From NCBI GenBank assembly GCA_001803565.1, contig MHDQ01000159.1:426-7488 (forward strand): a stretch of DNA of 7,063 bases. The letters run 5' to 3'. This stretch comes from Nitrospinae bacterium RIFCSPLOWO2_12_FULL_45_22. GTDB lineage: Bacteria; 2-12-FULL-45-22. The notes beneath the pieces are model-generated. The model saw nothing but the letters and a program-made list of their open reading frames with translations, ran no database searches and had not been told where the DNA came from. This document shows, piece by piece, positions 1 through 7,020 of this stretch; the stretch's first letter is position 1; each line of letters begins with the position of its first letter. The position numbers and the translations under genes are program-made.

Positions 1-1533
1 ACCGGTATGCTCCCCACCGCTATGGCGCAGGTTATGGGTAGCCAATGCCTGGCCACTAAGGAAGATACTCTTGCCGGGGTTCAGCAACGGGATATAGGTA
101 GGCCGATCAATGCCCACAGCCCACTTCAAGCGATCTACCCGATCCTTCCAATCCCATTTATCCGTATTAGTGATCAGGACCTTGGGAGTAAAGGAAGACT
201 CTATGCGCCATACGGTCGAGGTATATTGCTCAAAATAGTCTACGGATAAACCAAAGGTATTCTTTCTGGGGTTCTCGATCACACCAAAACCCCCTTCTGG
301 TATGGGCATACCCATCAGGGCACTCAAGACCGGGTCCGGGCCATAGGAACCACCCAGGTAGTTAGATACTAAGTCTAACAGTCCTTTGTAGGGCCGACCG
401 GGGTAAGGGGACCATTTAGCCCAGGGATTAATCATATGCAGATACCCATCATCGTCAAAGCCATACCAGTGGGTCAGGGCAAAGCGCCAGTCTTTATAGC
501 GCCACTCTAACCGCCCACCCCACTCGCTATTGCTCATAGAGGAACCATACTTCTTTACCTTCCAGAGGGCCTGAGTACCCCACGCATCAGGTTGGCTACC
601 ATAGGGACGAGGGACACCTAATAACCTACCCAATGCCCCGGAGGCATCAAAGAACTGACTATACAGCCTCAGATTCTCGGCAAAGGGGTTGGCCCAGGGC
701 TCTCCCCCCTGCCCCAGACCAGTCGGCTCAAAGTCATCCCAGAGCCATACCCCCTCAAGGGCAATATTATCAAAAGGACCAATGGTGCCAATTTGATACT
801 GATAGCGGGTAGACCATTGCGGGATGCGGATGTCTTCCCAGGAGTCATAGAAACCATGCCGACCGAAGTCTATCGGGTTAGGGATGTCCTGCGAGCGGAA
901 GAAGTCGGTCTTACCCCAGACGATTTGTTGCTTGCCGATGCGGAACCAGTGGGGGCCAGCAGTAATATCCAGATAGAGCTCTCGCAGCTCATTCTCATCA
1001 CTGGAGTCGTTATGCCACCACTCCAGCTTGCTCTCGGTATAGCCCACATTGTTCCGGCCACTCCCCCAGGCCCGCTTCACCACGGGTACTACAGGTAGCA
1101 CCACTGGCTGATCGGTCTCAAAGGCCCGGGGCAGTTTCAACCACCGGGTCAGGGTAGAGCCGTTCCAGACAAACCGGGCGGCATCGTCCCCATAGGTATC
1201 GGGGTTCAGGTCATAGACCCCATCATAGACCGCCCGGGTAGTAGTGAAGAGGTCTACCCGGTTAATAAAGCCCCAGTTCTTTATCAGGTTCTCTACGGTG
1301 ATCTCAAACTGGGCTGTGTTACGGAATGAAGTGAGCTGCATCTGTTTGCTGAAGCGAAAATCATCTGAGCGCATGATGGTATAATTCTCTAAAAAACCCT
1401 CTACAATCAGGTTCCTTTCCCCAGGTAATAGATATTCCATCCTGCCCTGGGAAATGCCTGGTAAGACCAGTGGTAAAACCAAAACTAACAATATTAACAC
1501 GCTTCGGAGAACGAATTTCATTCTTCTAACCAT
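1..1533 (-). CDS. DUF1302 family putative outer-membrane protein, 3' end cut off by the window
   Basis: The minus strand is open without a stop from ATG at 1533 to base 1, giving 511 residues; the C-terminus lies beyond the left edge. Residues 1-28 form a signal peptide: MVRRMKFVLR, then a Leu/Val core, with a likely cut near GIS-QG. The recognisable DUF1302 block is RIGKQQIVWGKTDFFRSQD at 198-216, followed by IPNPIDFGRH at 217-226. The chain is rich in Trp, Tyr and Phe with alternating polar residues (for example EWWHNDSS and RLEWRYKDWRFALTHWYGF), as expected of an outer-membrane beta-barrel. Members usually run to roughly 500-650 residues, so only the last strands should be missing. The start is set by AAGGAGGG five to six bases upstream; the internal ATG at 1521 is too far from it. 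DUF1302 proteins have no firmly assigned substrate. Encoded next to DUF1329 and an RND transporter, this one is probably the outer-membrane end of the system (inference). Confidence 0.88.
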   Translation of the reverse strand, partial: MVRRMKFVLRSVLILLVLVLPLVLPGISQGRMEYLLPGERNLIVEGFLENYTIMRSDDFRFSKQMQLTSFRNTAQFEITVENLIKNWGFINRVDLFTTTRAVYDGVYDLNPDTYGDDAARFVWNGSTLTRWLKLPRAFETDQPVVLPVVPVVKRAWGSGRNNVGYTESKLEWWHNDSSDENELRELYLDITAGPHWFRIGKQQIVWGKTDFFRSQDIPNPIDFGRHGFYDSWEDIRIPQWSTRYQYQIGTIGPFDNIALEGVWLWDDFEPTGLGQGGEPWANPFAENLRLYSQFFDASGALGRLLGVPRPYGSQPDAWGTQALWKVKKYGSSMSNSEWGGRLEWRYKDWRFALTHWYGFDDDGYLHMINPWAKWSPYPGRPYKGLLDLVSNYLGGSYGPDPVLSALMGMPIPEGGFGVIENPRKNTFGLSVDYFEQYTSTVWRIESSFTPKVLITNTDKWDWKDRVDRLKWAVGIDRPTYIPLLNPGKSIFLSGQALATHNLRHSGGEHTG

Positions 1534-1537
1534 AGCA

Positions 1538-1545
1538 CCCTCCTT
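1538..1545 (-). promoter_or_regulatory. Ribosome binding site of the DUF1302 gene
   Basis: The minus strand reads AAGGAGGG, with five bases between GGAGG and the ATG at 1533. This supports 1533 over the in-frame ATG at 1521 (MVRRM versus MKFVL), which would sit 17 bases from the same motif. Confidence 0.8.
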
Positions 1546-1627
1546 CTGTGTCGTTATTAGCTCTCATGGTAACGGCTAAGGCAGTATTTTAACCCGGAAC
1601 TCACGCTTATCGAGGAGACAGAAACCA

Positions 1628-1792
1628 ATGCAACGAGTCAGTCTTGCAATTGATGAACAGCGAAAATCTCTCCTATTCGCTACCGTCAGAGGGAAATTGG
1701 CAAGGGGAAGAGCAGCGGTCAGCAAAAATTCTATCGCACTTGGGGCTGGAGCAACTCGGCTTCAGATAACAGGTGGAATATCGTTGGCTTAA
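1628..1792 (+). CDS. Doubtful 54-codon open frame in the spacer
   Basis: ATG at 1628 opens 54 codons to TAA at 1790-1792. GAGGAG lies at 1612-1617, ten bases upstream, which is a plausible but slightly long spacing. The peptide is basic and Ala/Gly-rich (it includes VRGKLARGRAAVSKNS) and has no signal, membrane segment or motif I recognise. It runs against all neighbouring genes. A second frame over the same bases is also open, ending SAKILSHLGLEQLGFR, so openness alone is weak evidence. It is listed because it is the only candidate with a ribosome site in the gap, and it is more likely chance or a remnant than a working gene. Confidence 0.12.
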   Translation: MQRVSLAIDEQRKSLLFATVRGKLARGRAAVSKNSIALGAGATRLQITGGISLA

Positions 1793-1800
1793 TTTATTTA

Positions 1801-1835
1801 TCTTCTAAAGCATCACCTCCTTCGCTGATTCGTTA
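1801..1835 (-). repeat. Degenerate copy of the DUF1302 initiation region
   Basis: On the minus strand this block resembles 1556-1522, which carries the DUF1302 ribosome site and start. Both blocks are 35 bp, begin TAACGA, contain GAAGGAGG followed by TG and ATG, and end TTAGAAGA. About 27 positions agree if two small compensating gaps are allowed. In this copy the ATG is followed at once by CTT TAG, so it cannot encode more than a dipeptide. Part of the likeness comes from both being ribosome sites; the shared flanking words are not explained that way. Confidence 0.45.
1812..1822 (-). promoter_or_regulatory. Orphan Shine-Dalgarno sequence without a usable start codon
   Basis: The minus strand reads AAGGAGGTGAT, an 11-base perfect complement of the conserved 3' end of 16S rRNA. 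It lies 17 bases downstream of the DUF1329 stop, where the next gene of a tight operon would start. The only ATG (1813) is two bases from GGAGG, too close for normal initiation, and is followed by one codon and a TAG at 1807-1805. No ATG, GTG or TTG sits at five to ten bases. It could be the relic of a lost or moved start, or a ribosome-holding leader element. Confidence 0.5.
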
Positions 1836-1839
1836 CCGA

Positions 1840-3180
1840 TTAGCGGCCGCGGGTGAGGCGGTTGATATCAAAATACTTTACCGTACCCGGGCCACTCATC
1901 TTCTCGGTTGTTTCTCCTGGGATACCCTGGTAAACGCTGGCGGTCCATTTCGAATCTGGGCCGGGCATGGCAATAGTACCCTTATTATTCTGATAATCTA
2001 TACAGGTAAGGGAGGCCCATACTGGCAGACGCAACCCCTTGTTTTGCGGGTTAAAGCCATCCTCACTCCAGTACCAGCCCAAAATAAAGCCTTTCCAGAG
2101 CTCATTCTTCTTATCCCAGGCCGAAGTCCAGGTGGAATACATGGTCTGGACATCTACATAGAAGAGCTTACGGGCATAGGGATGCCTTTCCCATTTAGGG
2201 ATATTATCCACGATAAAGGTATCCCGGAGCTCCCAGCGGGTAATAGGTATCAATTTATGATGCCCATAGAGGTCATTATCCGTAATAGTCTTTTTATCTA
2301 TGGCGATAGAGGTAAGCATCTTCCTGCGGTTAATAAGTTTCCATTCCCAATCAGCCGGTCGTCCAGAGAAGTTATAAAAATCGTCTATGGTATACTCCGT
2401 GCCCATAAAGGAGTCGGCCCGGGTCGCCATAGACATACGCCGCACCCGGCGCAAGGCCGGCACATAGGCCCAACCATCATCCTCTTTGAAAGAATCGGCA
2501 TAACGGAAAGAGACGAAGGTGGTATCCTTCACATCAAAGGGCATGGTGATCTGTACCCACTCCTTGCGCTGGAAGTCTTTAGCATCCGGGGCCTCAACGG
2601 TATAGTTATTCTCTGGCAAATCGGCCCGGTGGGTAAAATAGGTCCTTTTATATAACCCGCCCACTTTGCGGTCTATAGTACCGCCGGGGCTCCTGAGCCA
2701 ACCCTCCCAGTGATCAGCGCCTAATCCTTCATTCTGCCAGCGGTATTCCCAGTTCCATACCAGCTTATAGCCGGCCTGCGGGTCACCCACCTTGATACTA
2801 TCCGAGGGAAATGGGTAGCCAGCAACATAGTCGAGCAGTTCGCCTTTGGGACCGATCCTGGCCTGGGTGCCAAATTTTTTCGTTGCTTCAAGATAGAGGG
2901 GATGAGGAGAATAGTCGCGGGTCTCGGCAATAGTGATCTTCATATCCTTAGTAAAGATAGCGCTCCAGAACTCCCGCGGTATCCAGGGCTTGAGTTTCTC
3001 TATATCCTTGTAAGTGAGCACATCCCCGGGCTTAAACTGGGGCTCACCCGGGTCTTGTTTGAACCACTCCAGACACTCATCCAGCTTGACCAACTCCAGC
3101 TCCTGCGCCCACAGGACAAAACTGCTTACCAGGACCAACGTAGTGACGACCAACCCAACCAAGAAAGCCTTTTGTAACAT
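1840..3180 (-). CDS. DUF1329 periplasmic protein (LolA/LolB-like family)
   Basis: The product has 446 residues from ATG 3180, close to the usual length for DUF1329. Residues 1-25 are a signal peptide (MLQKAFLVGLVVTTLVLVSS, then FVLWA) with a likely cut before QELEL. No cysteine lies at the cleavage site, so it should be soluble in the periplasm rather than a lipoprotein. Family hallmarks are HPLYLEATKKF (93-103), YVAGYPFP (118-125), GLYKRTYFTHRADLP (175-189), and a long conserved stretch at 222-273 with ALRRVRRMS and DSFMGTEYTIDDFYNFSG. Databases place DUF1329 near the LolA/LolB fold, which binds lipid or acyl chains in a hydrophobic cavity; a carrier role between the RND pump and the outer membrane is therefore inferred. 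An ATG 21 bases further upstream (3201) is in frame, but only 3180 has a well-spaced ribosome site. The gene follows the MMPL gene by 101 bp. Confidence 0.9.
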   Translation of the reverse strand: MLQKAFLVGLVVTTLVLVSSFVLWAQELELVKLDECLEWFKQDPGEPQFKPGDVLTYKDIEKLKPWIPREFWSAIFTKDMKITIAETRDYSPHPLYLEATKKFGTQARIGPKGELLDYVAGYPFPSDSIKVGDPQAGYKLVWNWEYRWQNEGLGADHWEGWLRSPGGTIDRKVGGLYKRTYFTHRADLPENNYTVEAPDAKDFQRKEWVQITMPFDVKDTTFVSFRYADSFKEDDGWAYVPALRRVRRMSMATRADSFMGTEYTIDDFYNFSGRPADWEWKLINRRKMLTSIAIDKKTITDNDLYGHHKLIPITRWELRDTFIVDNIPKWERHPYARKLFYVDVQTMYSTWTSAWDKKNELWKGFILGWYWSEDGFNPQNKGLRLPVWASLTCIDYQNNKGTIAMPGPDSKWTASVYQGIPGETTEKMSGPGTVKYFDINRLTRGR

Positions 3181-3188
3181 AACCTGCG

Positions 3189-3196
3189 CCCCCCTT
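3189..3196 (-). promoter_or_regulatory. Ribosome binding site deciding the DUF1329 start
   Basis: The minus strand reads AAGGGGGG, eight bases before the ATG at 3180. This purine tract would lie inside the coding region if translation began at the upstream in-frame ATG (3201), which itself is preceded only by AT-rich sequence. The resulting protein also begins with a cleaner signal peptide. Confidence 0.65.
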
Positions 3197-3205
3197 CTCA
3201 TATTG

Positions 3206-3263
3206 ATTAATGGTTACTGGTTATTTCTTTGGTTTTTCTGTCTCTTCAAGGTATAAGGTATAA
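3206..3263. repeat. AT-rich spacer with simple repeat words
   Basis: The spacer between the MMPL and DUF1329 genes contains ATTAATGGTTACTGGTTATT at 3206-3225 and a tandem pair of GGTATAA at 3250-3263. The 10-mer TTACTGGTTA (3214-3223) recurs on the opposite strand at 5922-5931 in the other long AT-rich spacer, so the two belong to one family of low-complexity intergenic words. No hairpin with a T-run is present, so read-through between the genes is likely. Confidence 0.5.
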
Positions 3264-3281
3264 TGATTAACAACAAAATTA

Positions 3282-5819
3282 TTACTCTACTAACTGAACT
3301 ACAATACCATGGACCATCATGGCAATACCCAGGCCACCCAATACGGAAAAGAAATAGGTATCAATATTTCGGTGCCCGGTAGATAGAGCATAGAGGGATA
3401 TAGCGCCCATACCTGCTATAACTATGATTATAGTGAGTATAATACGCTGTATCCGCCTCTTCCGGGCCATAGCCGGGTCTTTCTCTCCTAGGGCAAACCG
3501 GGGCTTGATGATAGAGAACAGGGCTGGCACCAGGGTCACAGCAAATACACCATTAGCAGTCAGGACAATAGCCAGTAGCAGGGCCATCTCGGCCATAAAC
3601 CGGATACTGGATAGGGGATACCAGAAGAGGATGCCGGCCACCAGACAGACCGCGGTAAAGGTCACGGCCATACCCGTGGTAGAGATGGCCTTACGGATAG
3701 CGGCATCCATATCACCACCCAGGGTCCGATACTCCTTCTTCATGCGATCCACAATATATACCGCATAGTCTACACCCACACCCACACCGATAGCAGCCAC
3801 CGGCAAGGTATTGACATTCATACCGATATTTTGCCAGGCCATATAAGCCAGGGCAATGAGGGTAGCCAGGCCCAGCGGGGCCACGATCAGGCAAGAGGCT
3901 ATTGCGGAGAAATAGCTGACAAAGACACAGAAAAAGACCATAGAGAAGACCAGGATATTGTTCCAATGGTCTGACCATTCAATGTCCTCATTGGTAGCGG
4001 CCAGGACACCAATCAGCCCCCCGGCCAGTTTGTATTTAAAATCCTTCTGGGGATTTTCGGCAATAAACTCCTTGGTCTTCTCCAGGGCACTGGTAATAGT
4101 AGCGCCGGTCGTATCTTTATAATACACGGCCAGGTTGGCCTCTTTGCCTTTATAATCAATATAAGAGCTGAGGACCCGCGGCACCGGCGAGCCCGCCTCA
4201 TACATGAACATCAGACCTCCTACATCCTCAAGACTATCAGGTATGGTGGACCACATGGGGTCTTCGTAATGATACATCTTGTTGATGGATTTCATCAGGG
4301 TAGCAATGCTGAATTCACCACCGGCCTGCGGGTCTTCCACCAGATATTCCCCCATCCGCTCCATAACCTTTAGGGCCTCTGGCTCTTTAATAATATTCTC
4401 TTTGTCACCCGAGAAGATCACATAGAGGTGATTAGCCCCAGCAAACTTGCTGTTTATAGCCCGGGCAGAGACATTATAGTCATGTTCAGGCCAGAGTAGC
4501 GGTGAGCCCGGCTTGGTATCGCCATAGGTGATATAATAAGAGGTGGGGAAAACAAGGGCAAAGAGCAGGATAGCGGCCCCTAGTATGCCCCACCGCCTTG
4601 TCTTACCTGTAGATAGCTTCGCCATCTGCTCCAGGTACCAATGGACTGGCCCCACTACATACCGCTGGCGCTGGTGTGGGGCGGGCAGATAAGAGATCAG
4701 GATAGGGGTGAGCATTAGCACAGAAAAGATGATACTCATGCCCCAGAAGGTATTGAAGAAGGCCAGCCGATGCATCATGGGTATGCTGGATACCGAGACC
4801 ACAAAGATACCCATCGCATCCGTAACTACAGAGATCATACCGGGTACAAAGAGGTCCCCCATGGCCTTGGTAGCAGAGTACTTCTTATCCCCGGTATCTT
4901 CATATTCTTCCAGGAAGCGCTCGGTCATCTGTACCGAATGGCTGATACAGCGGGCCGTCACCAGCAGGTGGACAATAAGGATCAGGGGATCGAAATTATA
5001 ACCGGCAATACCGGCAAAACCCACACCCCAAATACAACTGATCCCCGCACCCACAAAAGGCACCAGCACACCCACCAGGCGGCGGAAATAGAAGATCAAT
5101 AAGCCAAACAATACCAGCAGAGTGATAGATATGGCCACAATTATGGAAGCGCCCCGGTACAGTTGCGTGGTATGCCCATAATGATAATAGATCCAACCAT
5201 AGAGCATAGGAGAGCCACTAATATATAGGGTAGTATTATTATCTTCTAATTCCTTTCTCATTTTTTGCAGCCGCTCAAAGACAATACTATAGTTGAGTCG
5301 CTGCTCATAAAAGGCTGCCGAGACCAGAGCTGCTTTACCATCATAAGAGACCAACCGCCCCCGTACATTATCATTAATAAAGCAATCCCGTTTAAACTGA
5401 GCCAGTTCTTCTTTGGTCTTAGGCATAATATCGGGCATGACGGGATAAGAATTCAACGTCCCATCCGGGGTAATGACCAGGGAGCGTACCTTGGGGTGGG
5501 CGATAGATTCAAGCTGGTAATGGTTTATACCAGGGATCAGGTCGAGCTGGTCAGTAAGATATTTAATCTTTTGCAGGGTCTTGGTATTAAAGATATCCCC
5601 TTGTTTTACCTCTAAGGAGATAGTTACGATATTAGCGCCACCAAACTTATCCCGTACCTCTTTATGGAGGTCGATATAGGGGTGTTTTTGGGGCAGGAGT
5701 TCGTCAAAAGAGGTCAAGACATGCACATCCATAAAATTGAGGAATAGATAAGTAGTAGCCCCCAGGATTAATAACGTAGCCAGGAGCCTATGCCGCATCA
5801 CCAATTCTGCAAAACGCAT
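3282..5819 (-). CDS. RND-superfamily transporter, MMPL type, with two extra C-terminal membrane segments
   Basis: This is an 845-residue inner-membrane protein with the duplicated RND plan. A first membrane helix (about 11-29) is followed by an extracytoplasmic loop (30-221) and helices at about 222-245, 249-272, 277-296, 324-345, 353-378 and 410-430. A second loop (431-618) is followed by helices at about 620-640, 641-662, 670-691, 715-735 and 739-770. The signature IGVGVGVDYAVYIVDR (677-692) in the tenth helix carries D684 and Y685, matching the proton-relay Asp-Tyr of MMPL proteins. The equivalent helix of the first half (HLLVTARCISHSVQMTERF, 284-302) lacks the Asp-Tyr pair. Two further helices (about 790-811 and 820-842) follow the normal 12. 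The family exports or shuttles lipids and other hydrophobic compounds by proton-motive force; the substrate here is unknown. AAGGAGG, seven bases upstream of 5819, fixes the start. The gene lies between the propeller and DUF1329 genes. Confidence 0.92.
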   Translation of the reverse strand: MRFAELVMRHRLLATLLILGATTYLFLNFMDVHVLTSFDELLPQKHPYIDLHKEVRDKFGGANIVTISLEVKQGDIFNTKTLQKIKYLTDQLDLIPGINHYQLESIAHPKVRSLVITPDGTLNSYPVMPDIMPKTKEELAQFKRDCFINDNVRGRLVSYDGKAALVSAAFYEQRLNYSIVFERLQKMRKELEDNNTTLYISGSPMLYGWIYYHYGHTTQLYRGASIIVAISITLLVLFGLLIFYFRRLVGVLVPFVGAGISCIWGVGFAGIAGYNFDPLILIVHLLVTARCISHSVQMTERFLEEYEDTGDKKYSATKAMGDLFVPGMISVVTDAMGIFVVSVSSIPMMHRLAFFNTFWGMSIIFSVLMLTPILISYLPAPHQRQRYVVGPVHWYLEQMAKLSTGKTRRWGILGAAILLFALVFPTSYYITYGDTKPGSPLLWPEHDYNVSARAINSKFAGANHLYVIFSGDKENIIKEPEALKVMERMGEYLVEDPQAGGEFSIATLMKSINKMYHYEDPMWSTIPDSLEDVGGLMFMYEAGSPVPRVLSSYIDYKGKEANLAVYYKDTTGATITSALEKTKEFIAENPQKDFKYKLAGGLIGVLAATNEDIEWSDHWNNILVFSMVFFCVFVSYFSAIASCLIVAPLGLATLIALAYMAWQNIGMNVNTLPVAAIGVGVGVDYAVYIVDRMKKEYRTLGGDMDAAIRKAISTTGMAVTFTAVCLVAGILFWYPLSSIRFMAEMALLLAIVLTANGVFAVTLVPALFSIIKPRFALGEKDPAMARKRRIQRIILTIIIVIAGMGAISLYALSTGHRNIDTYFFSVLGGLGIAMMVHGIVVQLVE

Positions 5820-5970
5820 CTATGCTCCTCCTTATTTCTTATAAGCATTCAGCTTTCAGCCAGTCTTTGGTGAGTGGTTAATTGGTAAATAGTTAATTAG
5901 TAATACCCACCACTCACCAATTAACCAGTAAAATGCTGCCTGCTGATTATTGAGTGCTGAACACTAACAG
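5820..5970. other. Repeat-rich spacer between the propeller and MMPL genes
   Basis: These 151 bp hold no open frame of note. Besides the MMPL ribosome site at 5825-5833, they consist largely of short repeated words. TTCAGC occurs at 5848-5853 and 5855-5860, with its complement GCTGAA at 5956-5961. GCATT at 5845-5849 faces AATGC at 5932-5936. Variants of GGTTAATTGG and AGTTAATTAG fill the centre. The outer inverted words could extend the central hairpin, described separately, into a larger imperfect fold. Confidence 0.55.
5867..5927. repeat. Two overlapping 12-bp inverted repeats
   Basis: TTGGTGAGTGGT (5867-5878) is perfectly complementary to ACCACTCACCAA (5909-5920), and TGGTTAATTGGT (5875-5886) to ACCAATTAACCA (5916-5927). 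The left arms share four bases and the right arms share five, in the order A-B-A'-B', so the full stems cannot form together. Each hairpin would have a loop of about 30 bases. No T-run follows on either strand, so this is not an ordinary intrinsic terminator. Confidence 0.75.
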
Positions 5971-7020
5971 TTATTGCTTTGGGGGGAAGAGTTGCTGCCA
6001 GGTCTGCCCTCCATCCCCGGTCTTGAAGATGGTGCCGCTCCCTCCTACTACCCACCCTACCTCCCGGTCCGAGGAAAAGGCTGTGCCCCGAAACCAATTT
6101 ATGGACTCAATATCTTTAATATTGTGCCAGCTATTCTCTGGATCATCAGAATATTTTAAGGCCGTGCCTACCGAACCGAAGGCAAAATCTTCTTTGCCTA
6201 AGCCAATAGAAAATAGGTTCTGAATGGTGTGAGAAGGGACTTTCCGCCAGCTCTGGCCACCATCCTCGGTATGGACAGTAGTGCCAGCCAGCCCTGCTAC
6301 CCAGCCATGGGCCAGATCCCGGAATTTAATATCATACCAATAGGTACTGGTTGGCATTTCTTCCAGGAAATTTTCCTGGGGTTGCCAGGTCAAGCCACCA
6401 TCTTCGGTATGGAGTATATGGGCAAATTCCCCTATTATCCAGCCCTGCTGGGCATCATAAAAATATACCCGGTTGAGGACCAGGTCAGGGTTCTCTTCTG
6501 GCCGCAAAAACTTATCCAGTTGCTCGACCGGCCAGGTCTTCAATGATCTATCTTGCCAGGTCTTGCCACTGTCGGGGCTATGGAGGATAGTGCCAAAGTC
6601 GCCCACGGCCCAGATATTTTGTCTATCAGCATAGGCCACTGAGATAAGATGGTGCTTTGTGCCGCTGGTAGCTTTTATCCAGGTCTTACCACCGTCGTCG
6701 GTACGCAGGATAGCCCCCTCCCGGCCGGTGATAATACCCTGCCTCTCATCAATAAACTTGACACTGTATAAAGGCTTATCCGTACCACTGGTCTGCAATT
6801 CCCAGGTCTTACCACCATTAGCCGTATGGAGTATCTTGCCCCAATAGCCTACTACCCAGGCATGCTCTCTGCCTACTGCCGCTACGCCATATAAACTATC
6901 CCGCTCGCTAATAATTGCTGTTTGCGCTCTTATTTTTGCGGGTAAAAGGAAAAGGGTTAGGGATACTCCGAGGATTGTTAGTAGATAGAGGGACCGGCGC
7001 TTGACTAGAAATATAGACAT
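5971..7020 (-). CDS. Secreted Ycf48/HCF136-like seven-bladed beta-propeller
   Basis: This is a 349-residue exported protein. Residues 1-32 are a signal peptide (VKRR, then a Leu-rich core) with a likely cut in KIRA-QT. The mature part is seven repeats of the BNR-like type ending in a Gly-x-Thr/Ser-Trp turn. Their cores lie at 58-73 (GYWGKILHTANGGKTW), 99-114, 140-155, 197-212, 243-258, 282-298 (degenerate, SDDPENSW) and 326-341 (GGSGTIFKTGDGGQTW). An insertion of about 27 residues (156-182) separates blades three and four. Ycf48/HCF136 is known as a photosystem II assembly factor, but related propellers occur widely in non-photosynthetic bacteria, and nothing here suggests photosynthesis. As the first gene of the cluster and in the same compartment as DUF1329, it may act as a scaffold or assembly factor for the transporter (inference). 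The ribosome site is AAGGGAGG at 7032-7039, eleven bases before the ATG, slightly long. Confidence 0.9.
   Translation of the reverse strand: MSIFLVKRRSLYLLTILGVSLTLFLLPAKIRAQTAIISERDSLYGVAAVGREHAWVVGYWGKILHTANGGKTWELQTSGTDKPLYSVKFIDERQGIITGREGAILRTDDGGKTWIKATSGTKHHLISVAYADRQNIWAVGDFGTILHSPDSGKTWQDRSLKTWPVEQLDKFLRPEENPDLVLNRVYFYDAQQGWIIGEFAHILHTEDGGLTWQPQENFLEEMPTSTYWYDIKFRDLAHGWVAGLAGTTVHTEDGGQSWRKVPSHTIQNLFSIGLGKEDFAFGSVGTALKYSDDPENSWHNIKDIESINWFRGTAFSSDREVGWVVGGSGTIFKTGDGGQTWQQLFPPKQ

Follow-up and report, generated by a model that had tools for sequence, protein, structure and literature searches.

The closest described counterpart of the genes considered here is AmeABCD of Castellaniella defragrans 65Phen, a tetrapartite RND transporter for monoterpenes. 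Its pump AmeD stands for a lineage of its own within HAE3, one that is invariably found in cassettes of this kind (PMC6394551). Deletion of ameABCD lowered monoterpene tolerance and increased accumulation of Nile Red, and an insertion in ameB impaired growth on monoterpenes (PMC6394551). The same families make up the “Nanopod” cluster of ORM2a, a methanogenic benzene degrader, where it is abundant in the proteome (PMC13101534); the genome of this organism is devoid of known benzene carboxylase genes. For Delftia, the same paper cites work in which deletion of a DUF1329 gene impaired growth on phenanthrene. In Pseudomonas putida these families are represented by PP_0765/PP_0766 together with PP_2018/PP_2019, all needed for growth on Tween 20, and predicted contacts are strong between pump and propeller and weak between the DUF1329 protein and the barrel (PMC10866462). 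The kind of transporter discussed below has been known since 2018, and the set described here is its further member in a deep uncultured lineage.

The window, i.e. the whole analysed stretch of 7,063 nucleotides, contains four genes of the minus strand and no further convincing gene. In the order of transcription they encode a Ycf48-like propeller (7020–5971), an RND pump (5819–3282), a DUF1329 protein (3201–1840) and a DUF1302 protein (from 1533 to beyond position 1). The preliminary description had already listed four consecutive same-strand genes of these families with no cytoplasmic enzyme between them, and gene calls in combination with Pfam confirm it; nothing is interleaved. These four genes are all that the contig of 7,488 bp carries: at one side it ends with the window, 43 bases before the start codon of the propeller gene, and at the other it breaks off inside the DUF1302 gene. 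The source genome, a draft of 3.67 Mb with 85% completeness, comes from a lineage that has, to our knowledge, no cultured member. In the search for relatives a single other genome of the same taxonomic order was found (JACOWJ01, a Nitrospinota bacterium from groundwater). Neither promoter nor terminator signals above the level of chance were registered in the window, nor did it match any Rfam RNA. The 151 bp spacer between the propeller and pump genes (5820–5970) contains an inverted repeat (5867–5927) and a small dispersed repeat, which has a second copy with 80% identity in the same genome (C300:20480–20617) and two partial ones (C292:382–453 and C88:4092–4123), the copies being 78–91% identical.

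Of the known systems AmeABCD resembles the window most fully, combining a DUF1302 protein, a DUF1329 protein of the LolA superfamily, a Ycf48/COG4447 propeller and an HAE3 RND pump. It belongs, however, to a far lineage and has the order barrel–DUF1329–propeller–pump, whereas that of the window is propeller–pump–DUF1329–barrel, and no monoterpene genes were seen here. The cluster of ORM2a shares the DUF1329, Ycf48-related, MMPL and porin-like proteins, as well as an anaerobic host using aromatics, but genes for a universal stress protein and another hypothetical protein belong to it as well. The P. putida proteins, which also include DUF1302 and DUF1329 members, a periplasmic protein and a transporter of the multidrug-efflux type acting together, are encoded in two separate places, and their substrate is Tween 20. 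Pump, LolA-like carrier and barrel stand in a row in yet another type of sets (L081, L125 and TOL_3187–3188 of Thalassolituus, PMC6304351), but these have no propeller, some of their pumps are fused to LolA, and they form a separate pump clade. HpnN is an HAE3 RND pump as well, though it works without the three partners.

The propeller (5971–7020, minus strand, 349 aa), which would be the equivalent of AmeC, matches PSII_BNR/YCF48 in Pfam (1.9e-35) and Ycf48 in PDB (2.3e-25). Its identity with the photosystem II assembly factor Ycf48 itself was rejected, as the score was 127.6 bits against the curated equivalog cut-off of 326. Signal peptides were recognised by eye at the N-termini of this and the two other non-pump proteins. 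The pump (3282–5819, minus strand, 845 aa), a predicted AmeD equivalent, was assigned to the HAE3/MMPL type by the MMPL match (6.2e-29, Pfam), by trees and by the HAE3 profile, which was the best NCBIfam match (4.6e-26) yet remained below its cut-off (91.1 of 351.9 bits). It has 12 hydrophobic segments, predicted to be membrane helices, and large periplasmic loops at approximately 31–224 and 431–621, following the first and the sixth segments. In the alignment the second half contains D684, the Asp of the D684–Y685 proton-relay pair (codon 3768–3770, minus strand); this position is occupied by Asp in 21 of 21 Ycf48-linked pumps and in 62 of 63 other RND sequences. The site expected for the Asp-Tyr pair of the first half is taken by S293–H294 (codons 4938–4943, minus strand). 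Both residues are invariant in all 21 Ycf48-linked pumps, the sister type having mostly Gly-His, and the histidine may take part in proton passage. MmpL3 and the sterol transporter BstA were rejected as identities of the pump, which scored 50.1 and 18.6 bits, respectively, on curated profiles requiring 1400. A tripartite efflux pump of the HAE1 type was dismissed too, because neither a membrane fusion protein nor a TolC-type factor was found by Pfam among the four proteins.

The DUF1329 protein (1840–3201, minus strand, 453 aa) is the presumable AmeB equivalent, periplasmic and with a LolA-like domain (DUF1329 2.4e-48, LolA_like 7.5e-17, Pfam). An in-frame ATG at 3180 has, by eye, a better ribosome site upstream and is a more likely start than 3201. 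The model of this protein (mean pLDDT 55) matches 3bk5, 9tp6 (LolA3 of Porphyromonas gingivalis) and 4z48, a solved DUF1329 protein, and the LolA-like fold named for this family in the preliminary description is confirmed by both profile and fold matches. The outer-membrane appearance suggested there for the DUF1302 protein (5.4e-14, Pfam), a putative AmeA equivalent, is also borne out, though by a weak model (mean pLDDT 51) with long antiparallel strands and porin matches, as would be expected for the family. Since both models are of low confidence, we keep fold assignments at the level of families. Only the N-terminal 511 aa of the barrel fall into the window (1–1533, minus strand). Its open frame runs without a stop to the contig end and comprises 652 codons or more there, counting a 34-N scaffold gap (L004:392–425) just before window base 1. 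The same ~30 bases stand on both sides of this gap, so that it is probably an unrecognised overlap.

One refuting outcome named in the preliminary description was a lack of conserved linkage outside this genome; the search was performed and strong linkage was found across phyla. In the source genome and three others (G001, G015, G036) an RND gene is no farther than 6 kb away from 9 of 10 Ycf48-like genes, with no more than 0.5 expected; in 13 further genomes, searched whole, 23 of 36 Ycf48-like genes have a DUF1329 gene at a distance of up to 8.5 kb (expectation at most 0.8). The corresponding probabilities are rough, because the lists were reduced by hand to a single entry for each reading frame and because the genomes had been selected for carrying a related pump, but the excess is not in doubt, and chance is excluded as an explanation of the four-gene linkage. 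A survey of 79 named loci seeded with the pump revealed pump, DUF1329-like and DUF1302-like genes together in most of them. Pump, DUF1329 and DUF1302 were recorded in 18 loci, pump and DUF1302 in 32 and Ycf48 in 5. The pumps of the second group often have ~1,050 aa, a length compatible with fusion to a LolA-like domain such as that reported for Thalassolituus (PMC6304351).

A tree computed for 103 pumps unites all 21 Ycf48-linked ones, that of the window included, in one clade with support 100, and pumps linked solely to LolA-like and DUF1302 genes fall outside it; a second tree (mixture model, 30 rows) concurs. This single clade agrees with the distinct AmeD lineage published earlier (PMC6394551), though AmeD itself was absent from the tree. 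Closest to the pump of the window are two pumps of G001 (65% and 56% identity) and a lone pump on contig C174 of the source genome (54%), followed by those of G063 (42%) and G060 (41%). Partner genes are present in both latter genomes: DUF1302, DUF1329, Ycf48 and pump stand in a row in G063, while in G060 DUF1302 and DUF1329 are several kb away from the pump. With A to D denoting equivalents of the Ame proteins, the order is A-B-C-D in L054 and L205, C-D-A-B in L075 and L191–L193, and C-D-B-A in the window. As gene order varies within the pump clade, it was not treated as defining the Ame type.

Based on gene families, family-level folds, conserved linkage and the shared pump clade, all computed here, we consider it likely that the four genes encode a single AmeABCD-type RND transporter with four components, in which propeller, DUF1329 protein and barrel are partners of the pump. 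We conclude that the window encodes a predicted proton-driven, envelope-spanning transporter for apolar compounds. The assumption of the preliminary description that the four proteins jointly move a hydrophobic compound across the envelope is supported by its match with the genetics of AmeABCD and P. putida and with the proteomics of ORM2a. In such a machine the DUF1329 protein, as a LolA-like half-barrel, would take the cargo over and ferry it through the periplasm, the DUF1302 barrel would pass it across the outer membrane, and the propeller might bind to the pump at its periplasmic loops and serve in assembly or coupling. From these comparisons we infer the physical complex, the hand-over of cargo and a substrate that may be hydrocarbon, aromatic or lipid-like. 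Some features speak against one machine: the spacers (151 and 306 bases) leave room for separate promoters, the gene order differs from that of Ame, and the nearest relative of the set in G001 adjoins, as judged by eye, arginine-synthesis genes and no catabolic neighbour. If the assignment is correct, it suggests what DUF1302, DUF1329 and non-photosynthetic Ycf48 proteins probably do in the source lineage. It also offers a concrete candidate, present in several copies per degrader genome, for the envelope handling of benzene, phenanthrene and similar oily compounds by anaerobes.

The direction of transport is suggested to be outward by the Castellaniella deletion, while growth defects in other systems make uptake possible; we regard export as moderately favoured and import as a weaker option. 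An uptake system, in which a hydrocarbon, an aromatic or a fatty ester would enter through the barrel to serve as growth substrate, is a possibility that we hold only tentatively. We know of no importing RND pump in the HAE3/MMPL branch, and small hydrocarbons cross membranes unaided. The ameABCD mutant, moreover, accumulates more Nile Red, not less (PMC6394551), although the requirement of the P. putida proteins for growth on Tween 20 (PMC10866462) fits an inward flow. Two other observations in favour of uptake come from genomic surroundings, and the first of them is a second set in the source genome. Contig C5 carries a propeller, a pump, a DUF1302 gene and the N-terminal part (170 residues) of a DUF1329 protein; C96 opens with the C-terminal part (128 residues) of such a protein. 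In G001 a single protein of 494 residues corresponds to both parts (75% over 9–178 and 81% over 367–494), and the gene that follows on C96, whose 359-residue product falls in no Pfam family, has its counterpart in the following gene of G001 (67%); the two contigs therefore probably represent one locus. It is flanked at one side by three UbiD-family genes and at the other by a molybdoenzyme from the group of perchlorate reductase and ethylbenzene dehydrogenase and by an HGD-D protein, i.e. a member of the benzoyl-CoA reductase/2-hydroxyacyl-CoA dehydratase superfamily.

The second observation concerns uncultured Desulfobacterium sp. TRIP AH-1, whose PITCH scaffold name agrees with the gene tags used for the phenanthrene-degrading culture TRIP (PMC11497795, PMC12016498). 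Seven of its loci have Ycf48 beside pump or DUF1302/DUF1329 genes; L191, L192, L193 and L195 are complete, L190, L194 and L144 are partial or interrupted by masked stretches, and four of the seven (L190, L192, L193, L195) contain UbiD genes. Of the 26 UbiD genes of this genome, 13 have a DUF1329 gene at most 8.5 kb away, a proximity reached in 7 of 20,000 position rotations if the length of one contig is assumed. One UbiD gene of C5 is 54% identical to that of L195, and the L195 pump stands next to the C5 pump in the trees (support 94–96, long branches). The occurrence of such families near hydrocarbon genes, put forward in the preliminary description, is confirmed for the C5/C96 paralogous set and for TRIP AH-1, but not for the window's own set. 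It is conceivable, though we would not rely on it, that anaerobes degrading unsubstituted aromatics pair their UbiD-type ring carboxylases with transporters of the Ame type. Each carboxylase set would then have its own pump set delivering the hydrocarbon to the membrane or clearing it from there, the source genome (C5/C96) and TRIP AH-1 being two distant cases and the set of the window a further paralogue. This pairing is not universal, since the sister set of G001 lacks UbiD genes up to a distance of 40 kb, but it is a testable link between transporter and enzyme. No statement of it was found in the literature searched, to which the proteogenomic study of TRIP_1 (PMC6849830) did not belong. 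Both this link and the repeated presence of Ame-type sets in a deep uncultured lineage may be novel.

Export of one of the cell's lipids (hopanoid-like or of another kind) to the outer membrane, in the manner of HpnN, seems unlikely. Relatives of the HAE3/MMPL type do carry lipids, the set includes a LolA-like carrier, no catabolic neighbour is visible on the four-gene contig and the same applies to its arginine-associated relative in G001. On the other hand, related sets elsewhere reside in degradation islands, and the pump falls far below the curated cut-offs for HpnN (29.6 of 751.85 bits), BstA and MmpL3; this HpnN score and the three partner genes beside the pump led us to reject HpnN identity. 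Finally, neighbours with separate roles and no joint function, an idea that could appeal to spacers up to 306 bases, to the dispersed repeat between propeller and pump genes and to a Pseudomonas genome with its best DUF1329 and Ycf48 matches on separate contigs, are highly improbable, given that linkage exceeds chance by far in various phyla and with several arrangements of the genes, and that the unlinked P. putida genes share a phenotype (PMC10866462).

Ten more DUF1329 profile matches, several of them in neighbouring genes, were found in the source genome outside the window. One DUF1329/DUF1302 group (C148) adjoins two HGD-D genes, and on C181 (L046) two similar DUF1329 and DUF1302 genes form tandem pairs with no pump nearby. 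The molybdoenzyme gene of C96 (L042:610–3455) seems to be divided between two reading frames, and a PD-(D/E)XK_3 gene immediately precedes it. The protein of 359–368 aa encoded directly after DUF1329 in C96 (L042:3952–5028) and in C35 of G001 (L051:12231–13334) has an N-terminal hydrophobic segment and is possibly a fifth component of the transporter. Next to one cassette of TRIP AH-1 (L144:957–8449) there are genes for a glycyl radical enzyme, for its activase and for a molybdenum hydroxylase of the aldehyde oxidase/xanthine dehydrogenase type. The genome of L105 (G063), an 8.3 Mb “Deltaproteobacteria” draft from groundwater, gave 121 UbiD matches, an extraordinary expansion of (de)carboxylases.
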